Assembly (NCBI RefSeq): GCF_001044395.1
Contig: NZ_JANU01000012.1
Location: 1-64,000, forward strand
DNA length: 64,000 nt
Source of the DNA: Caenimonas sp. SL110
Lineage (GTDB): Bacteria > Pseudomonadota > Gammaproteobacteria > Burkholderiales > Burkholderiaceae_C
Direction of reading: 5' to 3'
Part shown: positions 6,030-61,229 of the stretch, piece by piece
Layout: every line of letters starts with the position of its first letter
How positions within the stretch are numbered: position 1 is the stretch's first letter
Made by a program: the position numbers and the translations under genes
The notes under the pieces: generated by a model
What the model saw: only the letters and a program-made list of their open reading frames with translations
Told to the model about the DNA's origin: nothing
Database searches by the model: none

Positions 6030-6064
6030 CGCTTCCCTGTGAGCCGTCCTGGAAGGAAACCGTC

Positions 6065-6517: not shown

Positions 6518-6519
6518 GC

Positions 6520-7365
6520 ATGCGAGTCGAAGGGGTCGCCAGACGAAACTTCATTTTCGCGGGCGGCGTGACTCTTATCGGGTTGCCGGCAATGTCCCAG
6601 GCCCAGGCCCACCCTATCTGGATTTCCAATGAGCCGCCTTCCATGTGGCATCGGGCGATCAATCTCGTCCCAGCCCGCAAAAGCCAACTGGCGTTTGAAG
6701 GAAGAATTCAACTCGTCCCTGGTGGTGTCGGCCTGATGCCATCTGCCAGCCTATCCAGCAGCACCGGTGCATTGGTTGCGCATCCTTCGTTCCAGAACCT
6801 CACCTTTGAAACGGAGTTCCAACTCGCAGTTGCCGACTACTCGGCACTGCCCGGCGCGCACCCCATGGTAGCGGTTGCGCTCGACAAGCCGGGCGTGTCA
6901 CGCATCATGCCGACTGTCGTGTTTCAGGAGTGGGCCCCGGGGCAGGCGCGACTCAAGTTGACGGCGCGGGCGGAGGTCGAGCATGCCCGCTCACGCAACA
7001 CGTCGTGGGAGTGCCACTCCGAAACATTGACGGTACTTCCCGTCAGCGGACCTGGTAGCTGGACCGAAGAGGGAAGTCTGGCACTGAAGACGGCGGTGAG
7101 GCACCACGCCCGCGACATCGTTCAGTGCGTGGCCGTCGAGGCGGCGATGGCAGCTGGCGGCCTTTGGAAGGATCCTGTGGATCCTTCAACTCTGATTGAA
7201 CTCAGGCTGAAGATATGGCCCGAAAACATGTACTACAGCTGTTTGCAACTGGGTGAGACCGCCGAATCTCTCATCATTGCAAGTGCGAACAAGAGCTTGG
7301 GACACTTGGGCCGGCGCGGTGTCTTTGACAAGCGCCTCATCGCAGACCTGCGCAAACCGTCGTAG
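6520..7365 (+). CDS. Tat-signal unknown protein
   Basis: A 281-residue protein I do not recognise. The N-terminus has a twin-arginine-like signal (VARRNFIFAGG, hydrophobic stretch, then cleavage near SQAQAH), so export is likely. The rest has mixed alpha/beta composition, four scattered Cys, and a C-terminal half rich in charged residues (DKRLIADLRKPS at the end). The start at 6520, two bases after the RidA-family stop, was chosen because it places the RR motif near the N-terminus; a frame from 6484 exists but overlaps the previous gene. Its base composition is somewhat more AT-rich than its neighbours. Confidence 0.6.
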   Translation: MRVEGVARRNFIFAGGVTLIGLPAMSQAQAHPIWISNEPPSMWHRAINLVPARKSQLAFEGRIQLVPGGVGLMPSASLSSSTGALVAHPSFQNLTFETEFQLAVADYSALPGAHPMVAVALDKPGVSRIMPTVVFQEWAPGQARLKLTARAEVEHARSRNTSWECHSETLTVLPVSGPGSWTEEGSLALKTAVRHHARDIVQCVAVEAAMAAGGLWKDPVDPSTLIELRLKIWPENMYYSCLQLGETAESLIIASANKSLGHLGRRGVFDKRLIADLRKPS

Positions 7366-7396
7366 AAGCACCCAAGTCTCACACCCTTTCTCGGCC

Positions 7397-11316: not shown

Positions 11317-11374
11317 GATGCAGACTGTTTTTTTGCTTTGCGTGGGATGAAACGGGGATGGGTATCGCAGCCGA

Positions 11375-12517
11375 TCAGGCGACCAGTTCTTCGTGGGTCA
11401 GCGTGATGATCCGCCGCTCGGTCGGCGAACGCACATGGTCATCGAGCCTGTCGGACATGCGCTGCAGCAGTGCCTTGGGCGGCAGGTCTTCCACCGGGAC
11501 GGCCGCCAGCACGATGCGAAAGTGCAGGAATTCGGTGGGCGCCAGGGGCAAGGGCTCTTTCATCGCCGCCACCAGAAAGCGGCTGGCGACACTGCCGGCC
11601 GCCTCTGCAGGCGCCATGCCTTCGACGAGGACGGCAATGCGCGAATGGGACAGCCGGGCAGCGACATCGCCGTCCCGAAGCGCCTCGCGAATGCGGTTCG
11701 CTGCAAGCGGCAGCGCGGACTCTGCTGCCTCGGGACCGAATTCGGCCGCGAGCTTTTGCAGCTGTTCGATGTGGACGAGCACGATGACGCTGGGGTGTCC
11801 ATAGCGCAGCATCAGGTTGCGCACGGCGCGCACGCGGTCATAGAAGATGACCGGCATCGACAGGCCAGTGAGCGGGTCGATGGTGTTGCGCGCGTCGATG
11901 CGCACCTTGGTGTCGCTGTAGATGCGGTTGCGCCAGGAGGTCGCCAGAAAAACGGTGGTTGACCACAGGGCAAGCAGCGCTGCCGTCGGCAAGATGGATC
12001 CCGTCTCCTCGACCAGATGACGCCAGCCGGTGTACAGGGCCGCCGCGGCGAGAGCGGCCTGGCCAGCGACGAGCCAGCGCGCCCACGGCTGGCTCTGCGG
12101 CCAGGCGCGGAACATGATCAGCACGAGGCAGATCATCCAGAACAGCGCGCCGGCCAGAAGCAGGTGGATCTTCAGCGCAAATCCGGCGACGGCCAGCAAG
12201 GGCAAGACCACCAGGCTCGTGCCGATCATCAGGCGTCGGGGCTGCCGCAAGGCACCGGCATGGCTGACCAGTTCGAGCAACTGAAGGCCATCGACGGCCA
12301 GCAGCATCAAGAGCGCCGATTGCGCGAGATAGGCATTGCCGCCGACGATGAGTTGAAGCGTGAGAAGCGCGAGCGTGGCCGCTGCGCCGTGGACCAGCAG
12401 CGCCCGCTCGCGGTAAGCATTGGCAATGACAACGCTCAGGCAGAGGATCAGCAGCTGGACACCGGCAAAAGCGCCCAGCGCAACCAGCTCGTCGGGATCG
12501 ACCGGCAACACGGTCAT
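11375..12517 (-). CDS. membrane protein with degenerate GGDEF domain
   Basis: A 380-residue protein. Residues about 10-205 hold six or seven hydrophobic helices. After NTIDPLTGLSMPVIF (about 218-232), typical of the start of diguanylate cyclase domains, comes a domain of normal GGDEF length. The signature position, expected as RxGGDEF, reads RLSHSRIAVLVEG, so the active-site glycines and acids are gone and cyclic-di-GMP synthesis is unlikely. It may be a regulatory relic or a sensor partner. It lies between parC and a lytic transglycosylase, all on the minus strand. Confidence 0.75.
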   Translation of the reverse strand: MTVLPVDPDELVALGAFAGVQLLILCLSVVIANAYRERALLVHGAAATLALLTLQLIVGGNAYLAQSALLMLLAVDGLQLLELVSHAGALRQPRRLMIGTSLVVLPLLAVAGFALKIHLLLAGALFWMICLVLIMFRAWPQSQPWARWLVAGQAALAAAALYTGWRHLVEETGSILPTAALLALWSTTVFLATSWRNRIYSDTKVRIDARNTIDPLTGLSMPVIFYDRVRAVRNLMLRYGHPSVIVLVHIEQLQKLAAEFGPEAAESALPLAANRIREALRDGDVAARLSHSRIAVLVEGMAPAEAAGSVASRFLVAAMKEPLPLAPTEFLHFRIVLAAVPVEDLPPKALLQRMSDRLDDHVRSPTERRIITLTHEELVA

Positions 12518-12568
12518 CGACTGCGGCCCCCTAGCAGGCCGGTGGGTACTGCGAAAGGATGGATGGCG

Positions 12569-13417
12569 TCATTCACGCTCGATCTTGGAGTCGGATTGCT
12601 GCGCCGCCGCGATGGGCTGCGCGATGAAGCTTGCGGCAGGCAGATTGCCCCTGCCGACAGCACCCCCCGCAGGGATCTCCATGCGCACGCGCCCAGGCAC
12701 TCGCCCGCCAGCGCCTGACATCATCGATGGCGGTTTGAGCAGCGTGTAGAGCTGCATCACCGTCTTGACGTAATTCTGCGTCTCGCGGTAGTTGGGGATC
12801 TTGTTGCCCGCGCGCTGCACTGCGCCCTCGCCTGCGTTGTAGGCGGCCAGGGCCAGTTCGATCTTGCCGGGGAACATGTCCAGCAGGTAGCGCAGGTAAC
12901 GGGTCCCCGCCTTGATGTTGGTGCCGGGATCGGTGAGCTTCTTCACGGCCGCTGTCCTGGCATCACCCATGACGCCGTAGCGCTCTGCCGTCGCAGGCAT
13001 CAACTGCATCAGCCCGATGGCGCCCTTGGGAGACACGGCCGACGCATCGAAACCCGATTCGGTGGCGATCAGCGCCTGCAGCAATTCGTAATCGACCGAG
13101 TGCTTGAGCGACGCTTCACGCAGGTGATGCTTGACGACCTTGTAGCTGGGCGAAACCTCGAAGAACGCGATCAGCTTGGGCGCGGAGGTCGGTACCGTGA
13201 CAGCGCGCGCAGTCCCCAGTCCCCGCGCCGTATCGAAGCTCTCGCCGCCCCGAAAGAAAAGCTCATAGCGCTCGTCGACCTTCTCGGCCGAAAAGTGCGC
13301 AACACCCTTGGCATCAACATAGCCCCAGACCTCGGCGTGGGCCGCAGCGGTAAACGTCAACGCCATGAGCATCGCGCCAACCCAGCCAAATCCACCCAGT
13401 AATTTGAAGAACTTCAC
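12569..13417 (-). CDS. lytic transglycosylase (SLT family)
   Basis: A 282-residue peptidoglycan lytic transglycosylase. The N-terminus is a Sec signal peptide with likely cleavage after AAAHA. Residues about 30-60 resemble a DUF4124-like beta segment (WGYVDAKGVAHFS). The SLT domain follows, with catalytic Glu120 in LLQALIATESGFD, then KGAIGLMQLMPATA and LALAAYNAGEGAV. It cleaves glycan strands in the periplasm, leaving 1,6-anhydro ends. The start is a GTG at 13417, overlapping the stop of the GNAT gene and preceded by GGAGGTGA, a near-perfect Shine-Dalgarno sequence. Confidence 0.92.
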   Translation of the reverse strand: MKFFKLLGGFGWVGAMLMALTFTAAAHAEVWGYVDAKGVAHFSAEKVDERYELFFRGGESFDTARGLGTARAVTVPTSAPKLIAFFEVSPSYKVVKHHLREASLKHSVDYELLQALIATESGFDASAVSPKGAIGLMQLMPATAERYGVMGDARTAAVKKLTDPGTNIKAGTRYLRYLLDMFPGKIELALAAYNAGEGAVQRAGNKIPNYRETQNYVKTVMQLYTLLKPPSMMSGAGGRVPGRVRMEIPAGGAVGRGNLPAASFIAQPIAAAQQSDSKIERE

Positions 13418-13974
13418 GCGCTCACCTCCAGGCCCAGGCTGCGACGCCCGGTGAATTCACTTCGCAGCATGGACATGACATGCAGCGACTCGAAGCCCTC
13501 GGCCTGCTTCACTGCGTCGCGCAAAGTACCTTCCATGACAAAGCCCTCGCTGTCATAGAGCGACTTCGCACGGGCATTGCGCGACTTCACGTCAAGCCAG
13601 AAACGGTGTGCATGCAGATCGTCGAATGCAATTTTCTTGGCGGCTCTCAAGGCCGCACGCCCAAAACCACCGCCCTTGCCCTGCACCACCATGCGCTTGA
13701 GCTCGATGGACTGGTTCTGGCTGCGGCAGCCGATCAGGATCAGGAACCCGGCTGCCTGCAGCTGCGGCCCGGCTTCGAGGATGAAATGCCGGAAATCCGG
13801 AAAGCGAATCGCCGCCTCGTGCTGGGTGCTTTCCCAGGGCGTGATGAAGGGCAGGTTTTCCGGGTCACGCTCCAGCGTCAGCACGAAGTCGATGTCGCTC
13901 GTCATGGTCGGGCGCAGCCGCACGCGCGCACTGGTGCGCTCGGTCGTCGTGGCGGAATCATTGGCAGCGGTCAT
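13414..13974 (-). CDS. GNAT-family N-acetyltransferase
   Basis: A 186-residue acetyltransferase of the RimJ/RimL-like GNAT type. After about 15 disordered residues come VRLRPTMTSDIDFVLTLE (beta1/alpha1), KRMVVQGKGGGFGRAAL (acetyl-CoA pyrophosphate loop, a variant of R/QxxGxG/A) and HRFWLDVKSRNARAKSLYDSEGF, typical of the beta5-alpha4 region. The start at 13974 was preferred over upstream frame that runs into parE. It overlaps the next gene by four bases. Acceptor substrate unknown. Confidence 0.85.
   Translation of the reverse strand: MTAANDSATTTERTSARVRLRPTMTSDIDFVLTLERDPENLPFITPWESTQHEAAIRFPDFRHFILEAGPQLQAAGFLILIGCRSQNQSIELKRMVVQGKGGGFGRAALRAAKKIAFDDLHAHRFWLDVKSRNARAKSLYDSEGFVMEGTLRDAVKQAEGFESLHVMSMLRSEFTGRRSLGLEVSA
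13422..13429 (-). promoter_or_regulatory. strong ribosome binding site fixing the GTG start of the transglycosylase
   Basis: On the minus strand GGAGGTGA lies 4 bases before the GTG start at 13417, inside the 3' end of the upstream GNAT gene. It supports the GTGA coupled start. Confidence 0.7.
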
Positions 13975-14008
13975 CGGCGGGCGGTCAACAGTCGTGTGGT
14001 CCGGTTGT

Positions 14009-15976
14009 CTAGATATCGATTTCGACGGCGTCGCCGTGCAGTTCCATGAGCTCGCGGCGGGCAGCAGCTTCGCCCTTGCCCATGAGCTTGGTGATGAGGG
14101 CCTCGGTGGCCAGGAAGTCCGAGCGCCCCAGTTGAACAGGAAGCAGGCGGCGCGTGTCGGGATTGAGCGTGGTATCCCACAATTGTTCCGCACTCATTTC
14201 GCCCAGACCCTTGAAGCGGCTGATGTTCCAGGTGCCTTCGCGCACGCCTTCCTTGCGCAACTTGTCAAGAATAGCCACCAACTCGCCCTCATCGAGCGCG
14301 TACGTCTTGGAAGCAGGCTTTTTACCACGGGGCGGCGCGTCCACGCGAAACAGCGGGGGACGTGCCACATAAACATGGCCGGTCTCGATGAGCTTGGGAA
14401 AGTGGCGGAAAAACAGGGTCAGCAGCAGCACCTGGATATGCGAGCCGTCCACATCGGCGTCGGACAGGATGCAAACCTTGCCGTAACGCAGGCCCGAAAG
14501 GTCCGGCGTGTCGTCAGGCCCATGCGGATCGACGCCGATCGCGACCGCGATGTCGTGGATTTCGGTATTGGCAAACAGCCGATCGCGCTCGACCTCCCAG
14601 GTATTGAGCACCTTGCCGCGCAGCGGAAGAATCGCCTGGCATTCCTTGTCGCGGCCCATCTTGGCGCTTCCACCTGCCGAATCGCCCTCGACCAGAAACA
14701 CCTCGTTGTGCGAGATGTCGCGGCTTTCGCAATCGGTGAGCTTGCCAGGCAGCACAGCCACGCCCGAGCCCTTGCGCTTTTCGACTTTCTGACCGGCCTT
14801 TTGCCGGCTCTGCGCGGCCTTGATCGCCAGTTCCGCGAGCTTGCGACCGTACTCCACGTGCTGGTTGAGCCACAGCTCCAGCGCAGGGCGCACGAAGCTG
14901 GACACCAGCCGGACGGCATCACGCGAATTCAGGCGCTCCTTGATCTGCCCCTGGAACTGCGGATCGAGCACCTTGGCCGACAACACATAGGAAGCCCGTG
15001 CAAAGACGTCTTCAGGCAGCAGCTTCACGCCCTTGGGCAACAGCGAATGCAGATCGACGAAGCTCTTGACCGCCGTGAACAGGCCGTCGCGCAAGCCGCT
15101 TTCATGCGTGCCGCCTGCGTTGGTGGGGATCAGGTTGACATAGCTTTCGCGCACCGGCTGGCCGTCTTCGGTGAAGGCCACGCACCACTGCGCCCCCTCG
15201 CCTTCGGCGAAGTTGTCATTGTTCTGGGCGAAGCCCTCGCCCTCGAAAAGTGGAATCACCGGCTCGCCATGGAGCGTCTGCATCAGGTAGTCGCGCAGGC
15301 CGCCCTTGTATTGCCAGCTCTGCGTTTCCCTGGACTTCTCGTTGACCAGCGACACCGTGACACCGGGCATCAGCACGGCCTTGCTTCGCAGCAGGTGCGC
15401 GAGTTCAGCCATCGGCAATTGCGCTGTCTCGAAATACTTTGCGTCGGGCCAGACGCGGACGGTGCTGCCCTGGCGGCGATCGCCTTCAACGGCCTTGCGC
15501 ACGGTCAGTGGCTCCACCACGTCGCCGGCGGCGAACACGATGCGTGCAACTTGCCCCTCTCGATGGGTCGTGACTTCCAGCCGCTTGGCCAGCGCATTGG
15601 TCACCGACACGCCCACCCCGTGAAGACCCCCGGAGAAGCTGTAGGCCCCGCCCTTGCCCTTGTCGAACTTGCCGCCCGCGTGCAATCGGGTGAAGACCAG
15701 CTCGATCACCGGGGCGTTTTCTTCGGGGTGCATGCCGAACGGAATGCCGCGCCCGTCGTCTTCGATGCTGATCGAGCCGTCGCCGTGCAGCGTGGTCTTG
15801 ATCCGTTTGCCGTGGTTGGCCAGCGCCTCGTCCGCCGCGTTGTCCAGCACTTCCTGGATGACGTGCAGCGGGTTGTCGGTGCGGGTGTACATGCCCGGCC
15901 GCTGCTTGACGGGCTCCAGCCCCTTGAGCACGCGGATGGAGCCTTCGGAATATTCGGGTGGTTGCTTGGTCGCCAT
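14009..15976 (-). CDS. parE: DNA topoisomerase IV subunit B
   Basis: A 655-residue ParE, the ATPase subunit of topoisomerase IV. GHKL motifs: EVLDNAADEALA (Mg-binding helix), DDGRGIPFGMHPEE and SGGLHGVGVSVTNALA. The Toprim region has LVEGDSAGGSAKMGRD and ILSDADVDGSHI. The C-terminus shows RFKGLGEMSAEQLWDTT. The length (about 630-660) fits ParE, not GyrB. parE and parC are separated by three genes but on the same strand. Confidence 0.95.
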   Translation of the reverse strand: MATKQPPEYSEGSIRVLKGLEPVKQRPGMYTRTDNPLHVIQEVLDNAADEALANHGKRIKTTLHGDGSISIEDDGRGIPFGMHPEENAPVIELVFTRLHAGGKFDKGKGGAYSFSGGLHGVGVSVTNALAKRLEVTTHREGQVARIVFAAGDVVEPLTVRKAVEGDRRQGSTVRVWPDAKYFETAQLPMAELAHLLRSKAVLMPGVTVSLVNEKSRETQSWQYKGGLRDYLMQTLHGEPVIPLFEGEGFAQNNDNFAEGEGAQWCVAFTEDGQPVRESYVNLIPTNAGGTHESGLRDGLFTAVKSFVDLHSLLPKGVKLLPEDVFARASYVLSAKVLDPQFQGQIKERLNSRDAVRLVSSFVRPALELWLNQHVEYGRKLAELAIKAAQSRQKAGQKVEKRKGSGVAVLPGKLTDCESRDISHNEVFLVEGDSAGGSAKMGRDKECQAILPLRGKVLNTWEVERDRLFANTEIHDIAVAIGVDPHGPDDTPDLSGLRYGKVCILSDADVDGSHIQVLLLTLFFRHFPKLIETGHVYVARPPLFRVDAPPRGKKPASKTYALDEGELVAILDKLRKEGVREGTWNISRFKGLGEMSAEQLWDTTLNPDTRRLLPVQLGRSDFLATEALITKLMGKGEAAARRELMELHGDAVEIDI

Positions 15977-39202: not shown

Positions 39203-40201
39203 TCACGCTGCCGGCCCCGGCACGAAAACATCACTGAAGAAGTGATGCGGGTCCAGCCCACGCTCTTGCACGCAGGCGCTCTTGACCGAAGCCACCATCC
39301 CCGGCGAGCCGCAGCAATACACCTCATGCCCCGCGAGTGACGGGCAGTTGGCACGCACCGCATCATCCACCCGCCCCGCAAATCCACCCAGCGCCGCGGC
39401 GTCGGCGGGGTCTTCGATGGCAGCGATGAAGTTGAAACCCGGCAGCATCTTTTTCCATTTTTCGACTGCCGGCATCAGGTAGAGACCCGCGCGGTTGCGT
39501 CCACCCCAGATCAGCGTGACAGGCCGCTTGATGCCCTTCTTCAGCATGTCGTCGAGCAGCGACTTCACCGGCGCAAACCCGGTGCCGCCAACCACGCACA
39601 GCATCGGACCCTGCGCTTTTTCCTTCAGCTCGAAACTCCCGTAAGGCAGTTCAACCTGCAGCAGGTCGCCGCTCTTGAGGTTGGGCACGATCTGAGTGAA
39701 CCGCCCGCCCGCCACGTGACGGATGTGCAGCTGCAGCATGTCGCTCTCGTGCGGAGGATTTGCCATCGAATACGAGCGGCGGCTGCCGTCTGGCAGAGCT
39801 ACCTGCAGGTACTGTCCTGCCTTGAAGCGCGCGCGCTGTCCAGCGGGCAACCGCAGCTGCAGCACGTTCACGTCTTGCGCCGCCAGCGTGTTGCGGAACA
39901 CCTTGACGGTGAAGGTCTTGCGCGCGTCGGGGTCCACGCGATGCCAGGCCTCGGGCACGATTTCCAGGTCTGACTGTGGATGGCACTGGCAAAACAGCTG
40001 CTTACCAGGCGGCGTGACATCACCGGCGGGTGGGCACTCCACCTCCCCGGCGGAAACCGCTCCCGCGCAGTTGCCGCACACGCCCTTGCGGCACGAGTAA
40101 GGCATCTCGATGCCGGCCTTCAGCGCGGCGTCCAGGATGTTCTGGTTGCCTTCGCAGGCGAAGCTCACGTCAGTGCCGGCGATGCGGATTCGATAAGTCA
40201 T
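39203..40201 (-). CDS. tphA1: terephthalate 1,2-dioxygenase reductase component (TphA1-like)
   Basis: A 332-residue reductase feeding electrons from NAD(P)H to a Rieske oxygenase. The N-terminal plant-type 2Fe-2S domain has Cys-x4-Cys-x2-Cys in [11 protein letters not shown] and the fourth Cys in LFCQC. The FAD-binding RSYSMANPP and the NAD-binding GGTGFAP follow. Length (Comamonas TphA1 about 336) and position as the last gene of a tph-like operon support the name. It overlaps tphB by four bases. Confidence 0.85.
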
Positions 40202-41148
40202 GCGCTCACCCCGCCCAGCAACCGCAGGCTGCGCAAAAGGGCATCGGGCTTGGCCAGGCCCTTGCCGGCAATGTCCATGGCACTGCCATGCCCGGTACTC
40301 GCCAGCACGACTTCAGCCCCGATGGAGATTGCGCTGGCCGCCTGCGGCGCGAGCATCTTCACCGGAATATGCCCCTGGTCATGCAGCATCGCGACGTACA
40401 GGTCGTGCTTGCGGTCGGCCAGCAGCACGTCGGCGCCCAGGGGGCCGGTGATGTCAATGCCCGACTCCCGCAATTGCCGCGCGGCAGGGACCACCAGGTC
40501 TTCATCCTCGGGGCCGAACAGGCGTCCTTCAGAGGCGTGCGGATTGATGCCGAAAAGCGCCACTTTGGGCTGGTCCAATCCGAGCATGTGGCAAGCGCGC
40601 AGTCCGGCGTGTGTGGCCGCCATGACGAGTTCAGGTGTGATGCGAGCAAGCGCCGTGGAGACACTCTCATGCAGCGTGACATGCACGATGCGCAGCCCTC
40701 CACCCACCAACATCAGGAAAACGCTGTCCTGCGGCTGCCCGCACGCTCGCGCGAGCAGTGACGGATAGCCACTGAACTCGATGCCTGCCTGCGCGATTGC
40801 GGTTTCGTGGTGCGGCCCCGCGACGACCGCGTCGAACTCACCGCTGCGGCACGCCTGGATCGCGGCCGTGGCGGAAGCCACGGTGCTTTCGCCTGCGGCA
40901 GCGTTGATCTCACCTGGCTTGAATGCCGACGCCGGCAATTCGCCCGCCGGACGCACTCGCGCCTCGCGCAGCACCTCGCCCAGTCCCAGTCGCGTGGCTG
41001 TCTGCGCCAGCACGTCGGCAGGGCCGAACACGGTGATGCTCAACGCGCGCTCGTCTTTCAGCGCGGCCAGCGCCTTCAACACGATCTCGGGCCCGATCCC
41101 GTTGGGATCGCCGACCGAAAGCGCAATGCGGCGTGCAGGACCTGTCAC
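40198..41148 (-). CDS. tphB: dihydrodiol dehydrogenase, PdxA family (TphB-like)
   Basis: A 316-residue PdxA-family dehydrogenase. In tph operons TphB oxidises and decarboxylates the terephthalate cis-diol (1,2-dihydroxy-3,5-cyclohexadiene-1,4-dicarboxylate) to protocatechuate. Signatures: [53 protein letters not shown] and [12 protein letters not shown], which match TphB as I remember it. Start is GTG at 41148, overlapping tphA3 by four bases. By sequence alone it could be taken for PdxA; the operon decides. Confidence 0.85.
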
Positions 41149-41615
41149 AGCGGCAGCGCCAGCAGCGTGTCGGTCACCGTGCTGTCGCACACAGCGACGC
41201 GTTCGGCCAGCAGCAGCTGTCCATTGGTGAACACAAAGCGGTCCAGGTACTCGCCAGTGACGAACAGCGAAGTCTCCCCCGTGTGCATGATGCGCGCCAC
41301 CATGAACGGCGTGCGAGCCGTGGCGGCCTTGTCGTCCGCGGTCTCGATCAGCGGGATGCCCAGCAGATGCCGGTAGCGGTGAGCCTCGTAAATGTTGGCT
41401 TCGCGCAGTGCTGCGATACGGTCTTCCAGCATGGCGCGCGAATCGGCATAGACGATGCCGGCAGGAAGGCCATCGCGCTCGTTCTCGACGTTGGTGATGC
41501 GGTACTTGCACTGCTCGCAGAAAAATCCTGGCCAGAGTTCAAGCGCGCCACTGTCGATCGCCTGCGCATAACGCGCATTGAAGGCGCAAAGGGACATGAG
41601 GTCGATCATGGTCAT
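41145..41615 (-). CDS. tphA3: terephthalate dioxygenase small subunit (TphA3-like)
   Basis: A 156-residue beta subunit of a ring-hydroxylating dioxygenase (NTF2-like fold). Segments [35 protein letters not shown] and [16 protein letters not shown] match TphA3 as I remember it. Length about 154 in Comamonas. It is structural, joining the alpha subunits. Overlaps tphA2 and tphB by four bases each. Confidence 0.87.
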
Positions 41616-42844
41616 GCCTCCATGTGCGCGCGGTAGGCTTTCCAGAAGCCGCGCACGGATGTCTCGGTAGCGCGACCTTCGCTGGAACCCGTGTCGTCGC
41701 CACCCATTTCAACCACCGCGTCGCGGTCATGCGCGCCGGCGATGCCGCGCTGCACGAAGCCGCCCACGGCGCCGTCTTCCATCGAGATGAACCCTGCCGG
41801 TCCCACCAGGTTCAGCTGCTTGAGCCGCACGGTGCGCTGCTCGGGCGTGTCGTCCGTGTAGCCGATGTAAGTCCAGTTCAGCTCGGAACGCTCGACGCTC
41901 TTGGGCAGAAGCTGGCGCACCGCCAGGCAGTTCTGGATCTGCTGCAGCACGAAGCCGGGAAACACCGACAGGATCTGCAGCGTGATGCCGTCGTCGTACT
42001 CGGTAAAGCCGGCCAGCACACTGGGGTCCTTCAGCCGGTACTGCGCGTCATCCGAGCGCAACCCCTGCTCCTTGTACGAGGCATCGGCTGCGCCAGGATC
42101 GATCATCGAGAAGCTCACATGGTGGCCGCCCGACTCATCGACGATCACGCCACCTTTTTGCGAGAGTCGGTTGAGCTCGAATGTGGTGAAGAACAGGTGC
42201 AGCAGGCTCGCGTGGTAGCTGTCCTTGACGTTTTCGAAGTACAGCTTCCAGTTGTTGGGCAGCGCCTGCGTGAACCGGCCGATCACTTCCACCGGCTTGT
42301 GCAGCACGCGTTCGATGCGCGCGCAGATCTCAGGACCCAGATATTCCTCGATCGGCGCAACATCTTCGCTGAAGCTGCCGAACACCAGGCCGCAATAGAC
42401 CGCCACCATCAGCTTGCGCGGGCCGTGTTCTTCCTTGCAGAAGGTTGCCGGCATGCCGCCCTGCCCCTTCACGCCCTTTTCGAATGCGACGCCGGTCAGG
42501 TCCCCCTGTCGGTTGTAGCTCCACGCGTGATACACGCACTGGAAATTCTCGGCCGCCTTCCCCGACTTTTCCAGCACGATCAGCGCGCCGCGGTGGGCGC
42601 AGCGGTTCTCGAACGCATAGATCTCGCCGTCGTCGTCCCTGACCACCACCACCGGCGTTTCGCCGACGAAAGTGGTCCGGTAGTCGCCAGGGCCGGGCAG
42701 TTCCGCGTCCAGGCAAAGGTAGTTCCAGGTCGCGCCGCGGTAGATGCGCTCCTGCTCGTCGTGCGCGGTCTGCCTGTCGCTGTAGAGCTCGAATGGCACG
42801 CGGGTCAGGCCCGGGCTCTTCCAATGGATGGTCTGTTCTTGCAT
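41612..42844 (-). CDS. tphA2: terephthalate 1,2-dioxygenase large subunit (TphA2-like)
   Basis: A 410-residue Rieske oxygenase alpha subunit (413 in Comamonas). Rieske ligands Cys82, His84, Cys103, His106; mononuclear iron ligands Asp208-x2-His211-x4-His216 (DSYHASLLH) and Asp357. Residues Ser244, Arg310 and Arg391 line up, one position shifted, with those I recall as binding the terephthalate carboxylates in the Comamonas enzyme. The C-terminal [13 protein letters not shown] matches too. This makes terephthalate the leading substrate. The operon order tphC-A2-A3-B-A1 agrees. Confidence 0.88.
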
Positions 42845-42850
42845 ATGGGG

Positions 42851-43825
42851 TTACTCCACGGTCACGCTGGCGCTCTTGACGACCTTGCTCCACTTGTCCG
42901 ATTCATTGCGTATGAACTGCGCGGTCTTCTCGGGTGTCCAGCCGCCGGGAACCGCGCCCTGTTCGAGGAATCGCTGCCTCACGTCGGGCGCCGCGAGGGC
43001 CGACGAGAAATGCCGGTGCGCATATGCCACAGCGTCCTTGGGCGTGCCCGGTGGCGCCACCATGGTGAAGAACGTGACAGCTTCCATGTTCACCCCGGAT
43101 TCGCGCAAGGTGGGCACTTGCGGCAGGATCGGCGAACGCTCCTCATCGGCCACTGCCAGTATCCGCAACTTGCCGGCGTTGTGGTGCTGCGCCGAGGAGC
43201 TGATGTTGTCGAAGAAGATGTCGACATTGCCGCCCAGGATGTCCACCAGCGCGGGTGCGGTGCCCTTGTAAGGCACGTGGATCATCTTCACGCCCGTCTG
43301 CTGCATGAACATGCTGGCCGTCAGGTGTGATGTGGACCCGTTGCCTTGCGATGCATAGCTCACCTTGTCGGGATTGGCCCTGGCGTACGCGACGAGTTCG
43401 GCCACGGTCTTGACCGGCAGCTTGTTGCTCACGGCCAGCACGTTCGGCACGGTGGCGATCACGGTCACCGGCACCCATTTGGTGGGATCGAACGCAAGTG
43501 ACTTGTACAAGTGGTGATTGATAGCGATCGGGCCGGGCGGCGAGACCAGGAAGGTGGTGCCGTCCGGATCGGAACGGGCCACAAACTCTGCGCCGATATT
43601 GCCGCCTGCACCCGTCTTGTTCTCCACCACGACACCTGCGGGGAAGGCTGCGCGCACCTTTTCGGCCAGGATGCGCGGCAGCACGTCTGCCGTGCCTCCT
43701 GCGGGAAAGGGCACGATCAGCCTGACCGGCTTGGCCGGCTGTGCAAATGCAAATCGACCGATGGAAGCGGCTGCCACCGAGGCGCCAAGCGCCAGGATGG
43801 TTCGTCGCGGGAAGTATCGGTTCAT
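42851..43825 (-). CDS. tphC: TTT/Bug-type solute receptor (TphC-like)
   Basis: A 324-residue periplasmic binding protein of the tripartite tricarboxylate transporter (Bug) family. A Tat-like signal has Arg7-Arg8 (YFPRRTILALG) and ends near RFAFAQ. The Bug core begins KPVRLIVPFPAGGTADV. In tph operons the first gene encodes TphC, which captures terephthalate and delivers it to TctA/TctB encoded elsewhere. Start at ATG 43825 with AAGGA six bases upstream. Specificity inferred from context. Confidence 0.8.
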   Translation of the reverse strand: MNRYFPRRTILALGASVAAASIGRFAFAQPAKPVRLIVPFPAGGTADVLPRILAEKVRAAFPAGVVVENKTGAGGNIGAEFVARSDPDGTTFLVSPPGPIAINHHLYKSLAFDPTKWVPVTVIATVPNVLAVSNKLPVKTVAELVAYARANPDKVSYASQGNGSTSHLTASMFMQQTGVKMIHVPYKGTAPALVDILGGNVDIFFDNISSSAQHHNAGKLRILAVADEERSPILPQVPTLRESGVNMEAVTFFTMVAPPGTPKDAVAYAHRHFSSALAAPDVRQRFLEQGAVPGGWTPEKTAQFIRNESDKWSKVVKSASVTVE

Positions 43826-43942
43826 GGTTGAGTCCTTTTCTTGATTGAATGTCCGGGTCATACGCCCAGGTGCTCGTTGAGCAATGCGGGCTGGGCGCGC
43901 AGCGTGATGGCGCGCCAGAGAGCCGCGAGTTTCCTTTCCGCT

Positions 43943-43987
43943 TTGATATAGGTCAATGAAAACGGTAGTATTGTTCGTATACCGAAC
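43943..43987 (+). promoter_or_regulatory. tphR promoter and overlapping IclR-type operator
   Basis: TTGATA (43943-43948), a 17-bp spacer and TAGTAT (43966-43971) form a good sigma-70 promoter for tphR. Immediately downstream, GTTCG-TATAC-CGAAC (43973-43987) is a perfect inverted repeat of the type bound by IclR regulators. It lies over the expected transcription start, so TphR probably represses itself and controls the divergent operon. Confidence 0.65.
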
Positions 43988-43999
43988 TCTTAGATCGAA

Positions 44000-44794
44000 A
44001 TGAACGATTCACAGTACCAAGAAGGTCCTCAATCCGTCAAAAGCGATGACAAGGAATATGTGATGGGGCTTGAGAAAGGTCTCGCGGTCATTGAAGCCTT
44101 TGGCATCAACAAGGGCCCGCTCACGCTGACGCAGGCATCGGAGATCACGGGTCACACCAAGGCCGCCGTGCGCCGCAGCCTGCTGACACTGTGCAAGCTC
44201 GGGTACGCGGTCCAGGCCGGACGGTATTTCCGGCTGGCGCCGCGGTCGCTGCGCCTGGGTCATGCCTACGTGGCTTCGGACCCACTGGCGAAAGTGGCAC
44301 AGCCGATCCTGGAGATGACCAGCGAACGCACACAGGAATCCTCCTCGATCGCTGTGCTCGATTCACAGGACGCCGTGTTCATCGCACGGTCGACGCATCG
44401 GCGAAGCCTGTCGAGTGGTCTGGGCGTTGGTGCGCGACTGCCGGCGTATTGCAGTGCAACCGGCCGGGTGCTTCTGTCGGAGAAGGATCCGTCGGAAGTC
44501 GAGTTCATCCTCAACCGGATGTCGCGTCCCACGCTCACGCCGCACACGCAGACGCGCGTGCAGTCGGTCCTGGACGAAATCTCACTCGTTCAAACGCGCG
44601 GGTACTCGATCAATGACGAGGAACTGGAACTCGGCTTGCGGTCCATCGCAGTGCCGATCCGAAACGGGCAGGGCGAGCTGATCGCAGCCATGAGTCTGTC
44701 GGTGTCGACCAGCCGCATGACCAGGCAGGAGGTTGTGGACCGCCTGCTACCCGAGCTGGAAAATGCGCGCCGCAACTTCGCCACAATTTTGTAG
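44000..44794 (+). CDS. tphR: IclR-family regulator (TphR-like)
   Basis: A 264-residue IclR-family regulator. The winged HTH is at about 20-85 (LTLTQASEITGHTKAAVRRS), followed by the effector domain (LSSGLGVGARLPAYCSATGRVLL). It resembles the PcaR/PobR branch. It is transcribed away from the tph-like operon, as TphR is in Comamonas, and is expected to activate that operon when terephthalate is present. Confidence 0.83.
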   Translation: MNDSQYQEGPQSVKSDDKEYVMGLEKGLAVIEAFGINKGPLTLTQASEITGHTKAAVRRSLLTLCKLGYAVQAGRYFRLAPRSLRLGHAYVASDPLAKVAQPILEMTSERTQESSSIAVLDSQDAVFIARSTHRRSLSSGLGVGARLPAYCSATGRVLLSEKDPSEVEFILNRMSRPTLTPHTQTRVQSVLDEISLVQTRGYSINDEELELGLRSIAVPIRNGQGELIAAMSLSVSTSRMTRQEVVDRLLPELENARRNFATIL

Positions 44795-44806: not shown

Positions 44807-46360
44807 TCAGGCCGGCACATAACGCTGGCGCAGCACCCGATGCAGGATCTTGCCGGTAGCAGTGCGCGGCATCTCCGCGTCGCCGATAAAACTCACCACC
44901 ACCGGACACTTGAAACTCGCCAGGCGCTGCTTGCACCACGCGCGCAACTCGTCCGCCGTGGCCGTCTGGCCTTCGTGCAGTACCACCACCGCCTGCACCG
45001 CCTCACCCCACTTCTCGTGCGGCACACCGATGACGGCCACGTCTTTCACCGCCGGATTCGCACCGAGCACGCCTTCCACTTCTGACGGATACACGTTCTC
45101 ACCGCCGCTGATGATCATGTTGCTCTTGCGGTCCACCAGCCAGATGTAGCCGTCGGAATCGCGCCGCGCCATGTCGCCCACGGTGCACCAGTCGCCGCGA
45201 AACGCCTCTGCGCTTTTCTCGGGCAGCTTCCAGTAGCCGTCGAACACATACGAGGTGCGCGAATAAAGCTCACCGACTTCTCCGTCAGCGACTTCATTGC
45301 CTTCAGGGTCGAGCAGGCGGATCGCACCCGTGCCCGCCCACTCGCGTCCTACCGAACCCAGCTTTTCCAGCTGCTCGTGCGGACGCAGCAAGGTCACCCA
45401 GCCATGCTCGGTCGATCCGTACAGCTCGTAGAGCCGGCTGTTGCTGAAGTAGTTGAGGACGCCGCGCTTGGTGTCGGCCCGTGCCGGGGCCGATGAGATG
45501 AGCAGCTTGCCCACGCTGGACACGTCGTATTTGCTGCGCACCGCCTCGGGCAACGCCAGCACCATGATGTAGTGGGTCGGCACCAGCGATGTAAAAGTCA
45601 CCTTCTCTTGCGCGAGCGTGCGCACCAGCGCTTCAGCGTCAAAGCTGCGCCTGTCGTCGATCACGATGGTCGCGCCCAGGTGCATGAATGTCGTGCCGAA
45701 GTACAGCGAATTCGCGTGGCACAGCGGCATCACGAGCAAGCCGGTGTCGTCGCGCGTGAATCCCATCTCGAGCGCAGTAGCCAGTGCGATCAGGCTGCTC
45801 CCGCCATGCTTGCGGATCGCGCCTTTGGGCCGACCTGTGGTGCCCGATGTGTACATCAGCGCGCACACGTCATCTTGCGTCACGGTCGGCAGCGCGCGCG
45901 CCACATCGCCTTGCGCGATCACCGACTCATAACTGCGCCAGCCGTCGTGAGGCGCATCGCCCAGCGCAATGAAGCGCTGCGTCGCCTGCCCAATCAGGTC
46001 GCGGCTCGCATCCACCGCCTCGCAGAACTCGATGCCGGCGATCACTGCTGCAGCTTCGGCGTCCTGCAGGATGTAGCCCATCTCCGGCGCGGAAAGCCGG
46101 AAGTTCACCGGCACCGCGACCAGGCCGGCACGCGCCAGCGCGACGTACATCTCCAGCCATTCGATGCTGTTTGCCGCGACCAGCCCCACGCGGTCGCCTT
46201 TGGCCAGGCCAAGCCCCAGCAGCCCGCGGGCCAGGCGGCTTGCGCGTGAATCCCACTCGGCAAAGGTCAGGCTGCGACGTGAATCGCGGCCGCCGAGCTT
46301 GTTCGGCGTGAGGCGTGCGTGGGCGGAAATGGCGTCGGCAATCGTGAGCAGGCGAGTCAT
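44807..46360 (-). CDS. acyl-CoA ligase (AMP-binding)
   Basis: A 517-residue adenylate-forming enzyme with YTSGTTGRPKG, LYELYGSTEHG, DRKSNMIISGGENVYPSE and a C-terminal TATGKILHR. Substrate unknown; it may activate an aromatic or hydroxy acid. The start at 46360 was preferred because the longer frame runs into the palindrome. It converges with tphR (12-base gap) and diverges from a TPP enzyme gene. Confidence 0.87.
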   Translation of the reverse strand: MTRLLTIADAISAHARLTPNKLGGRDSRRSLTFAEWDSRASRLARGLLGLGLAKGDRVGLVAANSIEWLEMYVALARAGLVAVPVNFRLSAPEMGYILQDAEAAAVIAGIEFCEAVDASRDLIGQATQRFIALGDAPHDGWRSYESVIAQGDVARALPTVTQDDVCALMYTSGTTGRPKGAIRKHGGSSLIALATALEMGFTRDDTGLLVMPLCHANSLYFGTTFMHLGATIVIDDRRSFDAEALVRTLAQEKVTFTSLVPTHYIMVLALPEAVRSKYDVSSVGKLLISSAPARADTKRGVLNYFSNSRLYELYGSTEHGWVTLLRPHEQLEKLGSVGREWAGTGAIRLLDPEGNEVADGEVGELYSRTSYVFDGYWKLPEKSAEAFRGDWCTVGDMARRDSDGYIWLVDRKSNMIISGGENVYPSEVEGVLGANPAVKDVAVIGVPHEKWGEAVQAVVVLHEGQTATADELRAWCKQRLASFKCPVVVSFIGDAEMPRTATGKILHRVLRQRYVPA

Positions 46361-46390
46361 TTGAAAAGTCGATCCACGGTTGAATTTATG

Positions 46391-46410
46391 GAACTCTGAA
46401 TTCAGAGTTC
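46391..46410. promoter_or_regulatory. 20-bp perfect palindrome between divergent catabolic genes
   Basis: GAACTCTGAATTCAGAGTTC is identical to its reverse complement. It lies between the acyl-CoA ligase and the TPP enzyme, just before TATGAT (46414-46419), a possible -10 of the latter. A dimeric regulator, perhaps the GntR protein encoded at 48229, is a likely binder. Confidence 0.65.
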
Positions 46411-46479
46411 GGTTATGATACGGGCCAGCCCGGCGTTCTGGCAAGTGCCGGCCATCGATCCACCCGAAGGAGACTTGCA

Positions 46480-48219
46480 GTGCCGCTGATGCCCATCCAC
46501 GAACAGTCCGCCGCCGCCGTCATCGCGCGGTTCCTCAAGCAGCGCGGCGTCAAGCGCGTCTATGGTCTTTGCGGCGGGCACATCATGCCGATCTGGATGC
46601 GGCTGGACGCCGAAGGCATCCGCATCGTCGATGTGCGCGACGAGCGCGCTGCGGTCTACATGGCGCACGCCGAAGCACAACTCACGGGCGGATTCGGCGT
46701 GGTGCTGGTCACTGCCGGTCCTGGCGTGACCAACGCGATGACCGGCATTGCCAACGCGCACGTCGCGCGCGTGCCATTGCTCGTGCTCTCGGGCACGCCT
46801 CCCCGCCAGCAGGAAAATCGCGGGGCGCTGCAAGACATGGTGCACACGGACCTGGTGCGATCGGTGACGCGTTATGCGCGCACGGTTCGCGAGCCGTCGC
46901 TGGTCTTGCAGGAACTGGACGAGGCCGTCTCGCGTGCGCTTGGAAGCGGCGGCGAACCGGGCCCGGTTTACCTCGACTTCCCGGTAGACACACTGCGCGC
47001 CGAGGTGCCGCGCGCCGTACAGTTGCCCGAACACTTTGCGACCAAGCGGGCACCGCGCATCGCACCCGATCCGGCGCAGGTGCAAGCGGCTGTAGACCTG
47101 CTGTGGTCGGCCAAACGCCCGCTGTTCATCTCGGGGCGCGGGGCGCAGGGCGCGGGCGAACCACTCGCGCGACTGCTCACGGCGTTGAAGGCGCCCTACC
47201 TCGACACGGGTGAAAGCCGCGGCCTCGTGCCGGAAGATCATCCATCCGTCGTTGCAGCCATGCGCGGCTCGGTCATGAGCCAGGCCGATGTGGTGGTGAC
47301 GGTCGGTCGCAGGCTGGATTTCCAGCTCGCTTACGGCTCGCCGGCTGTGTTCGGTGAAGCGAAATTCCTTCGCATTGCCGATGCCGCATCCGAGATTCGA
47401 GACAACCGGCGAGGGGCGGTGGAGCTGTTTGCCACACCCGCGCTCGCGCTCGAAGCCATCCTTGAAAAAGCGGGCGATCGCCAGGCGGCCACTGATGTGG
47501 AATGGTCAACACAACTGCGCCGCCAGCACGTGGAGCGATCGGACAAACTCGTCACCAGCATGCGCAACGCGCCTGCTGGCAACGACGGGCGCATGCATCC
47601 CAACCGCGCACTGGCTGCGCTGCGTGACGCGCTGCCATCGGATGCGATCGTGGTGGCCGATGGCGGTGATTTCCTGAGCTTCGCACGCGTCGGGCTTCCC
47701 GCTGCGACCTATCTCGATCCGGGCCCGCTCGGCTGCATTGGCGTGGGCACGCCGTTCGGTATCGCTGCATCGCTGGCCTGCCCTGATCGCACCGTCGTCG
47801 TGGCAACCGGCGATGGCGCATTCGGCTTCAACGCGATGGAGATCGACACCGCCGTGCGCCACAAGGCCCCGCTGCTGGTCGTGGTCGCAAACAATGGCTC
47901 CTGGGCCATCGAAGTGCGCGACCAGATCGAAACGCATGGCAAGGTGGTCGGCACGCGGCTGCAATTTGCCGACCATGCCGCCATGGCACGCGCGTTCGGC
48001 ATGTATGCCGAGCGCGTTGAAAAACCCGAAGACCTGCCCGGCGCCATCAAGCGCGCGCTGGCAAACCGCCCTGCCCTGCTCGACGTGGTGGTCACGCCCG
48101 AGGCCGTGTCATCGGACGCGAAATCGGGCCTTGCCTGGGTGCCGGACCTGCAGCCGCTGCAGGCGTGGGACGAAGCCGAGCGCAAGTGGCGCGAAGCCGG
48201 CGCCGATCCAGTCAACTAG
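46480..48219 (+). CDS. ThDP-dependent enzyme of the acetolactate synthase / 2-hydroxyacyl-CoA lyase type
   Basis: A 579-residue thiamine-diphosphate enzyme with three domains. The N-terminal PYR domain has VDVRDERAAVYMAHAEAQLTG with the activating Glu, and VTAGPGVTNAMTG. The C-terminal PP domain has the ThDP-Mg motif GDGAFGFNAME to ANNGSW. The GSW sequence is like oxalyl-CoA decarboxylase/2-hydroxyacyl-CoA lyase members. Being next to an acyl-CoA ligase, it could cleave a 2-hydroxyacyl-CoA. It is not the biosynthetic IlvB, since no small subunit is present. Confidence 0.8.
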   Translation: MPLMPIHEQSAAAVIARFLKQRGVKRVYGLCGGHIMPIWMRLDAEGIRIVDVRDERAAVYMAHAEAQLTGGFGVVLVTAGPGVTNAMTGIANAHVARVPLLVLSGTPPRQQENRGALQDMVHTDLVRSVTRYARTVREPSLVLQELDEAVSRALGSGGEPGPVYLDFPVDTLRAEVPRAVQLPEHFATKRAPRIAPDPAQVQAAVDLLWSAKRPLFISGRGAQGAGEPLARLLTALKAPYLDTGESRGLVPEDHPSVVAAMRGSVMSQADVVVTVGRRLDFQLAYGSPAVFGEAKFLRIADAASEIRDNRRGAVELFATPALALEAILEKAGDRQAATDVEWSTQLRRQHVERSDKLVTSMRNAPAGNDGRMHPNRALAALRDALPSDAIVVADGGDFLSFARVGLPAATYLDPGPLGCIGVGTPFGIAASLACPDRTVVVATGDGAFGFNAMEIDTAVRHKAPLLVVVANNGSWAIEVRDQIETHGKVVGTRLQFADHAAMARAFGMYAERVEKPEDLPGAIKRALANRPALLDVVVTPEAVSSDAKSGLAWVPDLQPLQAWDEAERKWREAGADPVN

Positions 48220-59427: not shown

Positions 59428-59907
59428 TCAGACCGGGTAGATCAGCGAGTTGAGCACCATCTCGCTGTCATACACGCAACGCCGGCTGGATAGTTTCAAT
59501 CCAGCCGGCGTTTGCACGAACTCATCGATATAGCGGCCCACGTTGTAAACCTCGGATGCGTCACCGGGACGCGTACGGAACACCGCGTAGTTGGCTTGCG
59601 CGCTCACCACGCCTTCAGCCTGCGCCACCACACGAGCCGGGCCAACCACATGCCGGGTGTAATACGGCGCGTGGTAGATCGTTTGCGTGATGCCATACAC
59701 GCGATCCTTCATCATCCCCTTGCTTTCCAGCGCAATGAGCGACAGCGGCAAGTTGCGATCGAAGTTCTCGCGCGCCTGCACGAAGTAACGGCCATCGTCT
59801 GCAAAGAACTCAGGCCAGTCGTCAAAACGCTTTTCATCCAGCGCGGCAGCGTAGTCGGCGTTGAAGCGATCGATTTCCACCGCGAGCATCAGGACCGCAG
59901 TGGTCAT
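59428..59907 (-). CDS. aromatic-ring-hydroxylating dioxygenase small subunit
   Basis: A 159-residue NTF2-fold beta subunit. Segments such as VEIDRFNADYAAALDEKRF, QARENFDRNLPLSLIALESKG and CVYDSEMVLNSLIYPV are like those of salicylate 5-hydroxylase or anthranilate-type small subunits. Starts in ATGA overlap with the large subunit gene. Not part of the tph operon. Confidence 0.87.
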   Translation of the reverse strand: MTTAVLMLAVEIDRFNADYAAALDEKRFDDWPEFFADDGRYFVQARENFDRNLPLSLIALESKGMMKDRVYGITQTIYHAPYYTRHVVGPARVVAQAEGVVSAQANYAVFRTRPGDASEVYNVGRYIDEFVQTPAGLKLSSRRCVYDSEMVLNSLIYPV

Positions 59908-61229
59908 AGCGACATCACCTTGCGCCAGTACGCGTACATGCTGCGAATCAGCGTCTCGGTCACCATATGCTCTGTGCCTCCGGTGCCGGTGCCACCCAGT
60001 TCGCACAAGGTGCTGCCGTCTTCGCCCCATTGATCAAAGCCCTGCTGGCTCAGCTCGATCACCTCGCCATCATCCGCACTCACAAAACCAGCAGGCCCGA
60101 ACAGGTTGGCCTGGCGCAAGCGCCGCTGCGTCATCTCGGGCGAGTCGTGCGCAAACCCAAAATGCGTCCACACAAAATCGAACTCACCTTCGCCGCGCGG
60201 AACGATGTGCCGGGTGGACAGCGAGTTCACCTGCTGCTGGATGATGAGGCCGGGAAACAGCGTGATCATCGTTACCGTGGGCGTGATCTCTGCGCCGGGG
60301 TTGGAAGGATCAGCAATCTTCCACCACGGCTCGCCCACCACGTCGAGCAGGCGATCGTCATTGAGCGTCATGTTGGCCTTGAACGAGGTCACGCCCTCGG
60401 TCACTGCCGCGTTCTGCCCACCCTCGTTGCGGCGCGAAATCATCACCGCGTGACGCCCCTGGTCGTCCATCACCATGCGGCTTTTCTGGTCCGCACGCCA
60501 CAGGCCGAAGGTGACGAACCAGGTGTGCAGCAGACCCGGGTGGTAGGGGTCCTTGATGTTTTCCATCATCAGCTTCCAGTTGCCCGGAATGCGTTGGCGG
60601 TTGTAGCCCAGCAGCGTCAGCTCGCGTCCCTTGAAGATCCGATCCAGCCACGGCATGACGTTGGGGCCGAGGTAATCCTGCAAAGGCTCCACCGTGTCGC
60701 TGAACGTCGCGAACACCAGGCCATGCAGCACGGCCACACGCAGCTTGGTCAGGCCGTGCTGCTTCAGGTCGAAGTCCGCAGGCATGCCGCCGTTGACACA
60801 TTCAGCCCCGGCTTCGTCAAGCGCCTTCACACCCTCCTTGAAGGGCAGCCCCGCGAGGTCGCCGTTGAGCTTGTAGGTCCACTGGTGATAGGGGCACACG
60901 AAGCTGCGCGCATTGCCCTGCGGCTGCTGGCAGAAGCGCACACCACGGTGCGCGCAGCGGTTTTCGACCACGCGGATGCCGGTGTCCACGCCGCGATCTT
61001 TCGGCGCAACGCGATCGCGCACCATGATGACCTGACGCTCGCCAACAAAGGTGAGCTTGAAGTCGCCCGTGTTGGGAATTTCGACTTCGAGGCCGACGTA
61101 GTTCCAGTGCGCGCCGTAGAAGATTTTCTGCAACTCCTGCTGGTAGAGCTGCGCATCGGTGTAGGCCCAGAAGGGCACGCGGCTGGAACCCGGCTGGCTC
61201 CAGCGTGAAAGAGTGACAGGCGCGTTCAT
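59904..61229 (-). CDS. aromatic-ring-hydroxylating dioxygenase large subunit
   Basis: A 441-residue Rieske oxygenase alpha subunit. Rieske ligands Cys92, His94, Cys112, His115; mononuclear iron site Asp227-x2-His230-x4-His235 (DPYHPGLLH). The nearest style is the salicylate/anthranilate group. There is no reductase gene nearby, so electrons must come from elsewhere. It follows an MDR gene by 4 bases. Substrate unknown; an aromatic acid is likely. Confidence 0.87.
   Translation of the reverse strand: MNAPVTLSRWSQPGSSRVPFWAYTDAQLYQQELQKIFYGAHWNYVGLEVEIPNTGDFKLTFVGERQVIMVRDRVAPKDRGVDTGIRVVENRCAHRGVRFCQQPQGNARSFVCPYHQWTYKLNGDLAGLPFKEGVKALDEAGAECVNGGMPADFDLKQHGLTKLRVAVLHGLVFATFSDTVEPLQDYLGPNVMPWLDRIFKGRELTLLGYNRQRIPGNWKLMMENIKDPYHPGLLHTWFVTFGLWRADQKSRMVMDDQGRHAVMISRRNEGGQNAAVTEGVTSFKANMTLNDDRLLDVVGEPWWKIADPSNPGAEITPTVTMITLFPGLIIQQQVNSLSTRHIVPRGEGEFDFVWTHFGFAHDSPEMTQRRLRQANLFGPAGFVSADDGEVIELSQQGFDQWGEDGSTLCELGGTGTGGTEHMVTETLIRSMYAYWRKVMSL

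Follow-up and report, generated by a model that had tools for sequence, protein, structure and literature searches.

Terephthalate is for the most part an industrial compound, a building block of polyethylene terephthalate (PET) plastic, and for this reason the older role of the bacterial genes that convert it is an open question. The closest described system is the tph operon of Comamonas sp. E6, in which five structural genes, tphC-A2-A3-B-A1, stand divergent from an IclR-family regulator. The tph operon itself is well known: Ramlibacter has already been named as a tph host in a survey that reports a divergent IclR gene at every cluster it covers (PMC6562992), and conserved tph operons have been described at 22 of 100 TphC homologs (PMC8556258). 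In Comamonas testosteroni, TsaMBCD leads into the tph route by converting 4-methylbenzoate to terephthalate, with a Rieske enzyme acting first (PMC10579966). The present analysis concerns a tph operon of the soil bacterium Caenimonas sp. SL110 (contig NZ_JANU01000012.1), located in bases 1-64000 of a 136,018-base contig, hereafter the window; the genome comprises 4.72 Mb in 74 contigs and its assembly is rated 100% complete and 0.03% contaminated. By the literature searched, the new part is the apparently deletion-derived layout of this operon, together with a long, cytochrome P450-led form of it in relatives. In that literature, which covers part of what has been published, neither a tph operon led by a P450 nor a deletion of this kind was found, and in a 2026 review (PMC13040137) the words P450, toluate and methylbenzoate are absent.

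The window matches the E6 system in its five structural genes, in their order and in the divergent position of an IclR gene, and to this extent the first-pass annotation, which described a tph operon of Comamonas layout, holds. Its six genes are intact, as had been claimed, with all reading frames open and free of internal stops; the four-base overlaps noted from A2 to A1 are present at A2/A3, A3/B and B/A1, and tphC and tphA2 are spaced by 6 bases (Table 1). The locus is not simply a Comamonas operon, however, as its layout appears to have been reached through a deletion that left a relic of livF in front of tphC. With fairly high confidence, it can be read as a working terephthalate operon that is the shortened form of a long P450-Liv-tph operon, produced by a single deletion.

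The long form is best seen in the closest relative, L116 (G032, an 18,066-base contig), which is close to the window in TphA2 (96% identity), A1 (92%), B (91%), C (90%), A3 (87%) and the regulator (91%) and carries the same DUF455 gene (75%) behind tphA1. There, the regulator faces a 15-gene operon ending in tphC-A2-A3-B-A1, and the ten genes standing between regulator and tphC encode a P450, a ferredoxin, a ferredoxin reductase, a short-chain dehydrogenase/reductase (SDR), an aldehyde dehydrogenase (ALDH) and LivK, H, M, G and F. The complete 15-gene order is shared by G032, G016 and G205 and, without the ALDH gene, by G002; G003 and G466 represent it on incomplete contigs, parts of it are visible in L016 (examined only from the reductase gene onward) and L033, and the same kinds of genes occur in other orders in G173, G027 and Noviherbaspirillum (L092). 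The LivH match in L168 (1336-2048) is broken into three parts, possibly a sign of frameshifts in this assembly. The regulator was found at an E-value of 1e-75 or better in eight of 60 genomes from the genus, with the P450 adjacent in six of these eight, the exceptions being the window's genome and G460. A family sample of 399 genomes yielded a regulator at least 67% identical in four, including the window, and the other three have the P450 in the cluster, truncated in one. The window itself does not unite all parts of such a cluster: it has the regulator, promoter, livF relic and tph genes, and the P450 block is absent.

The fused junction can be read directly from the gap between regulator and tphC, which contains, in order on the tph strand, 79 promoter bases, 13 unassigned bases and 45 bases of the end of livF, followed by tphC. 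The first stretch is identical to the regulator/P450 gap of L116 in 67 of 80 alignment columns, and the livF tail, including its stop codon, agrees with L116 in 39 of 45 bases and 13 of 14 residues, in register; in L116 the two matching stretches lie 9,611 bases apart. The relic attains a local score of 66. No score above 45 arose in 2000 dinucleotide shuffles, and the sequences preceding tphC in 46 other loci where the regulator adjoins tphC did not exceed 41. The window's row in the TphA2 tree pairs with L116 (support 94) and is joined next by L016 (95) and then by L147 (96), all of which are long-block loci. Judged by these alignments and tree positions, deletion in the window's line is the parsimonious reading. 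The ancestor would have had the same regulator facing a CYP199-type P450, ferredoxin, ferredoxin reductase, SDR, ALDH, LivKHMGF and tphC-A2-A3-B-A1; one deletion, beginning immediately after the promoter and reaching as far as the last 14 livF codons, would have taken out the first ten genes and set tphC under the old promoter and operator.

Two other histories have to be weighed against the same evidence. In the first, the window would be an ancestral Comamonas-type operon with tphR, and an insertion between regulator and tphC would have brought the P450-Liv block into its relatives. Such a course fits the window's gene order, which is that of Comamonas E6 and the predominant one in published comparisons (PMC8556258), as well as L064, where the same regulator type directly adjoins tphC and both a P450 and a visible livF tail are lacking. 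It is nonetheless strongly disfavoured by the in-register livF tail, complete with stop codon, within the gap; the window is moreover nested inside long-operon rows in the TphA2 tree, and its regulator and operator are not of Comamonas type. On the livF relic and the tree nesting, insertion in the relatives was rejected in favour of deletion in the window, and it is to be considered very improbable. The second alternative, an assembly error in a genome that truly carries the long operon, is improbable. The junction is indeed shown by one assembly only, the same junction being found in no second genome among the 60 of the genus, which counts against the deletion, and sequences of related strains from one sample could have been joined wrongly. 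Against this, the junction belongs to a 136-kb contig of an assembly with the quality figures given above, and no CYP199-type P450 was found in the source genome at an E-value of 1e-60, the single weak P450 domain match (84 bits) lying on another contig. Its best LivK and ALDH matches are only 53% and 60% identical and are thus paralogs, whereas the other long operons that have these genes show 82-90% for LivK and 83-89% for ALDH. The same operon has also been shortened independently in G326 (L163, 14100-16300) by a second, different deletion, in which P450 residues 1-354 run, as judged by eye, into a LivG-like end and LivF and the tph genes remain.

The regulator is another point at which the preferred reading, deletion from a long operon, departs from the first-pass annotation, whose assignment of a Comamonas-type tphR was not upheld. 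It scores 288.4 bits with TIGR02431 (cut-off 284.75) and is divergent from tphC. In a comparison of the best 80 of 300 tph loci, the IclR proteins beside tphC are in most cases 43-48% identical to it, though TphA2 at these loci is 78-86% identical. A quick tree of 76 rows places the window in a 13-row clade with support 98, and 9 of the 13 rows come from loci with a CYP199-type P450 (8 of 11 without duplicate rows, the exceptions being the window, L064 on a long branch, and L082); the Comamonas-type regulators form a separate group. Relative to the tph system of Comamonas sp. E6, the window therefore has a regulator of another clade, at 43-48% identity, and a PcaU-type instead of an E6-type operator. 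In several long operons (L148 11265-11984, L161 560-1321, L168 9405-10124) a second IclR gene, 44-45% identical, directly adjoins the regulator, and in L169 (16554-17345) an ortholog-like regulator (70%) stands apart from any P450 or tph genes. We infer that the regulator activates the operon, and its inducer, considered below, is proposed on the same footing. For comparison, the sensor of Comamonas thiooxidans has been assayed with compounds of the kind to which terephthalate, 4-methylbenzoate and protocatechuate belong (PMC9888244).

With regard to the operator, a survey of IclR motifs assigns GTTCG-N5-CGnAC sites to PcaR and PcaU, and the TphR of Comamonas E6 is entered there with TTTTTGCGCATAGCGCAAAAA (PMC8222616). 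The regulator/tphC gap of the window contains a PcaU-type site, GTTCGGTATACGAAC; with at most one mismatch, such sites are present in 11 of 11 window-clade loci and 0 of 49 Comamonas-type loci, compared with about 2% in shuffles. The E6-type operator, TTGCGC-N3-GCGCAA, is matched in the window with 3 mismatches at best, and with at most one mismatch it is found in 0 of 11 window-clade loci; this test is weak, because only 11 of the 49 Comamonas-type loci show the operator. It was not recovered in the rows of Comamonas L054 and Delftia L081, a positive control of little weight, and these misses probably result from the 170-bp scan regions, which were placed by extrapolated start codons. Several of the regulator and operator comparisons speak against the proposed history. 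L064 and L082 combine the window's regulator type with tph genes in the absence of a P450, and G460 carries the regulator near neither P450 nor tph genes, so that regulator and P450 do not strictly go together. Outside the clade, the PcaU-type site occurs in all 7 basal loci (Pseudomonas, Bradyrhizobium and others) and in 2 of 4 sister-group loci; it parts the window from the Comamonas-type loci, yet it is not clade-specific, being shared by basal and sister loci.

The best solved matches of TphA2 are the terephthalate dioxygenases 7q04 (774 bits) and 7vju (768 bits), the next solved family being salicylate 5-hydroxylase at 297 bits, and TphA3 likewise finds its best matches in the 7q04 and 7vju complexes (219 bits with the 7q04 beta subunit). 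TphA2 is 81% identical to the copy of Comamonas testosteroni JL40 and 82% to that of Piscinibacter (Ideonella) sakaiensis. A position of the oxygenase outside the TphA2 clade, named beforehand as grounds for abandoning the assignment, was looked for, and the window row falls inside the Comamonadaceae tph loci, with the two terephthalate dioxygenases as nearest solved structures. A phthalate or isophthalate oxygenase was ruled out, the phthalate dioxygenase 9jp5 reaching 73 bits versus 774 for 7q04.

In the structure of the Comamonas terephthalate dioxygenase (TPADO), the iron ligands are H210, H215 and D356, and both carboxylates of terephthalate are held by N224, S243, R309 and R390, which form the pocket with I290 (PMC9060491). 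Alignment to TPADO shows all equivalents in the window's TphA2, with numbering shifted by +1 (H211, H216, D357, N225, S244, I291, R310, R391), and the Rieske ligands, judged by eye from the alignment, are likewise in place; the earlier recognition of the Rieske and iron ligands and of Ser244, Arg310 and Arg391 is thereby confirmed. The eight iron-ligand and pocket residues are present in 89 of 89 near-full-length TphA2 rows, a set that takes in the window itself and at least 4 duplicate contigs and leaves out 5 partial rows (A2 is present in 94 of 95 loci). The pocket set discriminates, since a paralog in the window (59913-61205) has W, M, M, R and M at the five pocket sites and retains only the arginine common to the wider subgroup. 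The second Rieske alpha subunit encoded in this part of the window (59428-61229, minus strand) shares 42% identity with TphA2 and resembles AndAc below the cut-off, and a shorter adjoining open reading frame (ORF) is probably a beta subunit.

These residues also bear on the idea that terephthalate is only a side substrate of an oxygenase whose main substrate is some other para-substituted aromatic acid. From the long-operon context it follows that these genes could have evolved with an upstream substrate, and NCBIfam provides no above-cut-off name for A1, B, A2 or A3; its best matches for TphA2 and TphA3 are anthranilate dioxygenase AndAc and AndAd, both below the cut-off (469 bits for TphA2 with AndAc, cut-off 750), which tells against the assignment. 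Yet the second-carboxylate residues N225, S244 and R391, according to the structural study found only in TPADO among characterised relatives (PMC9060491), are all kept, and TphC too matches terephthalate binders, which makes a side-substrate role very improbable. Judged by its sequence, the operon very likely encodes enzymes that convert terephthalate to protocatechuate.

The remaining components can be accommodated in the same pathway. TphC belongs to the TctC family (PF03401), and its top four solved matches are 8hka, 8hk9, 8hkb and 7ndr, with 446 bits for the terephthalate-binding protein 8hka and 433 bits for TphC 7ndr. In TphA1 the expected reductase domains were identified with Pfam. TphB scores 278 bits with the terephthalate cis-dihydrodiol dehydrogenase 4aty; its best solved match, 8zj3 and kin at 378 bits, is labelled 4-hydroxythreonine-4-phosphate dehydrogenase and is a point against this function. 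TphC would bind terephthalate in the periplasm and deliver it to a TctAB membrane pair whose genes lie elsewhere, TphA1-A2-A3 would form the cis-dihydrodiol, and TphB would convert the latter to protocatechuate, probably cleaved by a 4,5-dioxygenase from another contig. The prediction that protocatechuate genes and Tct partners lie elsewhere fits the genome, where five TctA genes above the Pfam cut-off and four LigB-type genes, among them one of protocatechuate 4,5-dioxygenase type, are found on other contigs. The LigB-type gene on C37 scores 584 bits with the class III extradiol dioxygenase beta model PRK13366 (cut-off 317) and 563 bits with the fused protocatechuate 4,5-dioxygenase model (cut-off 837); an alpha-subunit-like ORF, recognised by eye, lies upstream of it and a MocA family oxidoreductase downstream. 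A protocatechuate 3,4-dioxygenase route was considered and rejected: the stronger of two intradiol matches resembles a 1,2-dioxygenase of the (chloro)catechol or a similar type, and all are below the cut-off.

What the lost front part did can be approached through the relatives. Their P450 has CYP199A2 (442 bits) and CYP199A4 (422 bits) as closest solved structures. In CYP199A4, para-substituted benzoates are bound by Arg92, Ser95, Leu98, Phe182, Phe185, Ala248 and Arg243 (PMC11854964), and a parallel set of benzoate-binding residues is described for PbdA (PMC11530827). By our reading of the alignments, the aligned copies of this P450 keep R92, S95, L98, F182, F185, R243 and A248, and thus share the benzoate pocket of these enzymes, while S244 is replaced by Thr. 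An SDR and an ALDH stand before the terephthalate dioxygenase, and the simplest route suggested by this arrangement is therefore 4-methylbenzoate to 4-hydroxymethylbenzoate, 4-formylbenzoate and terephthalate. We infer, by analogy, a role of the P450-SDR-ALDH part in oxidising 4-methylbenzoate (p-toluate) to terephthalate. The long operon would thus run the same chemistry as TsaMBCD and the tph route of Comamonas testosteroni (methyl hydroxylation, SDR, ALDH, tph). It differs in starting with a CYP199-type P450, ferredoxin and reductase rather than with the Rieske enzyme TsaM, and in uniting all genes, LivKHMGF included, in a single operon, which the window lacks; its SDR scores 131 bits with TsaC (8sy8), which is not its best match. 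A difficulty for this route is that characterised CYP199A members prefer p-methoxybenzoate and are known for its O-demethylation (PMC11530827), a reaction that would not lead to terephthalate, whereas the neighbours in the long operon point to a methyl group.

Table 1. Features of the terephthalate locus, with positions in the window.
Feature	Position	Strand	Basis
tphA1, reductase component	39203..40201	-	Pfam Fer2, FAD- and NAD-binding domains; operon position
tphB, PdxA-type cis-dihydrodiol dehydrogenase, GTG start	40198..41148	-	PF04166
tphA3, small oxygenase subunit	41145..41615	-	best solved match 7q04 beta subunit, 219 bits
tphA2, large subunit of terephthalate 1,2-dioxygenase	41612..42844	-	7q04 and 7vju matches; pocket residues complete
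tphC, TctC-type terephthalate-binding protein	42851..43825	-	best matches 8hka and 7ndr; ORF opens at 43861
livF relic, last 14 codons (LRAQPALLNEHLGV) and stop	43858..43902	-	39/45 bases as in L116 livF
13 bp of unassigned sequence at the proposed deletion junction	43903..43915		stands for 9,611 bp (5953-15563) of L116
Presumed retained promoter region of the lost P450 gene	43916..43994	-	67/80 alignment columns identical to the L116 regulator/P450 gap
Predicted PcaU-type operator GTTCGGTATACGAAC	43973..43987		at most 1 mismatch in 11/11 loci of the regulator clade
IclR-family regulator, PcaR/PcaU/PobR subfamily, no ortholog of Comamonas-type TphR	44000..44794	+	TIGR02431; tree

For tphC, a start at 43825 is more probable than one at 43861, as agreement with the 324-aa homolog of L116 covers the N-terminus and the sequence ahead of it. 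A promoter scan gave one weak site, for the regulator side; the predicted RNA fold of the regulator/tphC gap is not unusual (z -1.47), and no RNA family was found at gathering score in the window. Adjoining the regulator, at 44807-48219, an AMP-dependent acyl-CoA ligase gene is divergent from one for a 2-hydroxyacyl-CoA lyase (NF058623, 828 bits, cut-off 600).

The window illustrates one path to a stand-alone terephthalate operon and shows gene order by itself to be a poor guide to the regulator. More tentatively, and with more doubt than confidence, the CYP199 operon, leading from 4-methylbenzoate or a similar para-alkyl benzoate through terephthalate to protocatechuate, might be the native, pre-plastic setting of the tph genes, from which stand-alone operons were carved more than once by front deletion, from promoter to livF in the window and from P450 to livG in G326. 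On that reading the window would be a natural snapshot of a plastic-monomer operon being cut out of an older pathway, and the inducer of its regulator may still be the substrate of the pathway that was lost. The conserved P450, SDR and ALDH ahead of the tph genes offer a concrete and testable natural source, and for biosensor and PET-recycling work the locus presents a terephthalate operon whose regulator comes from another clade.

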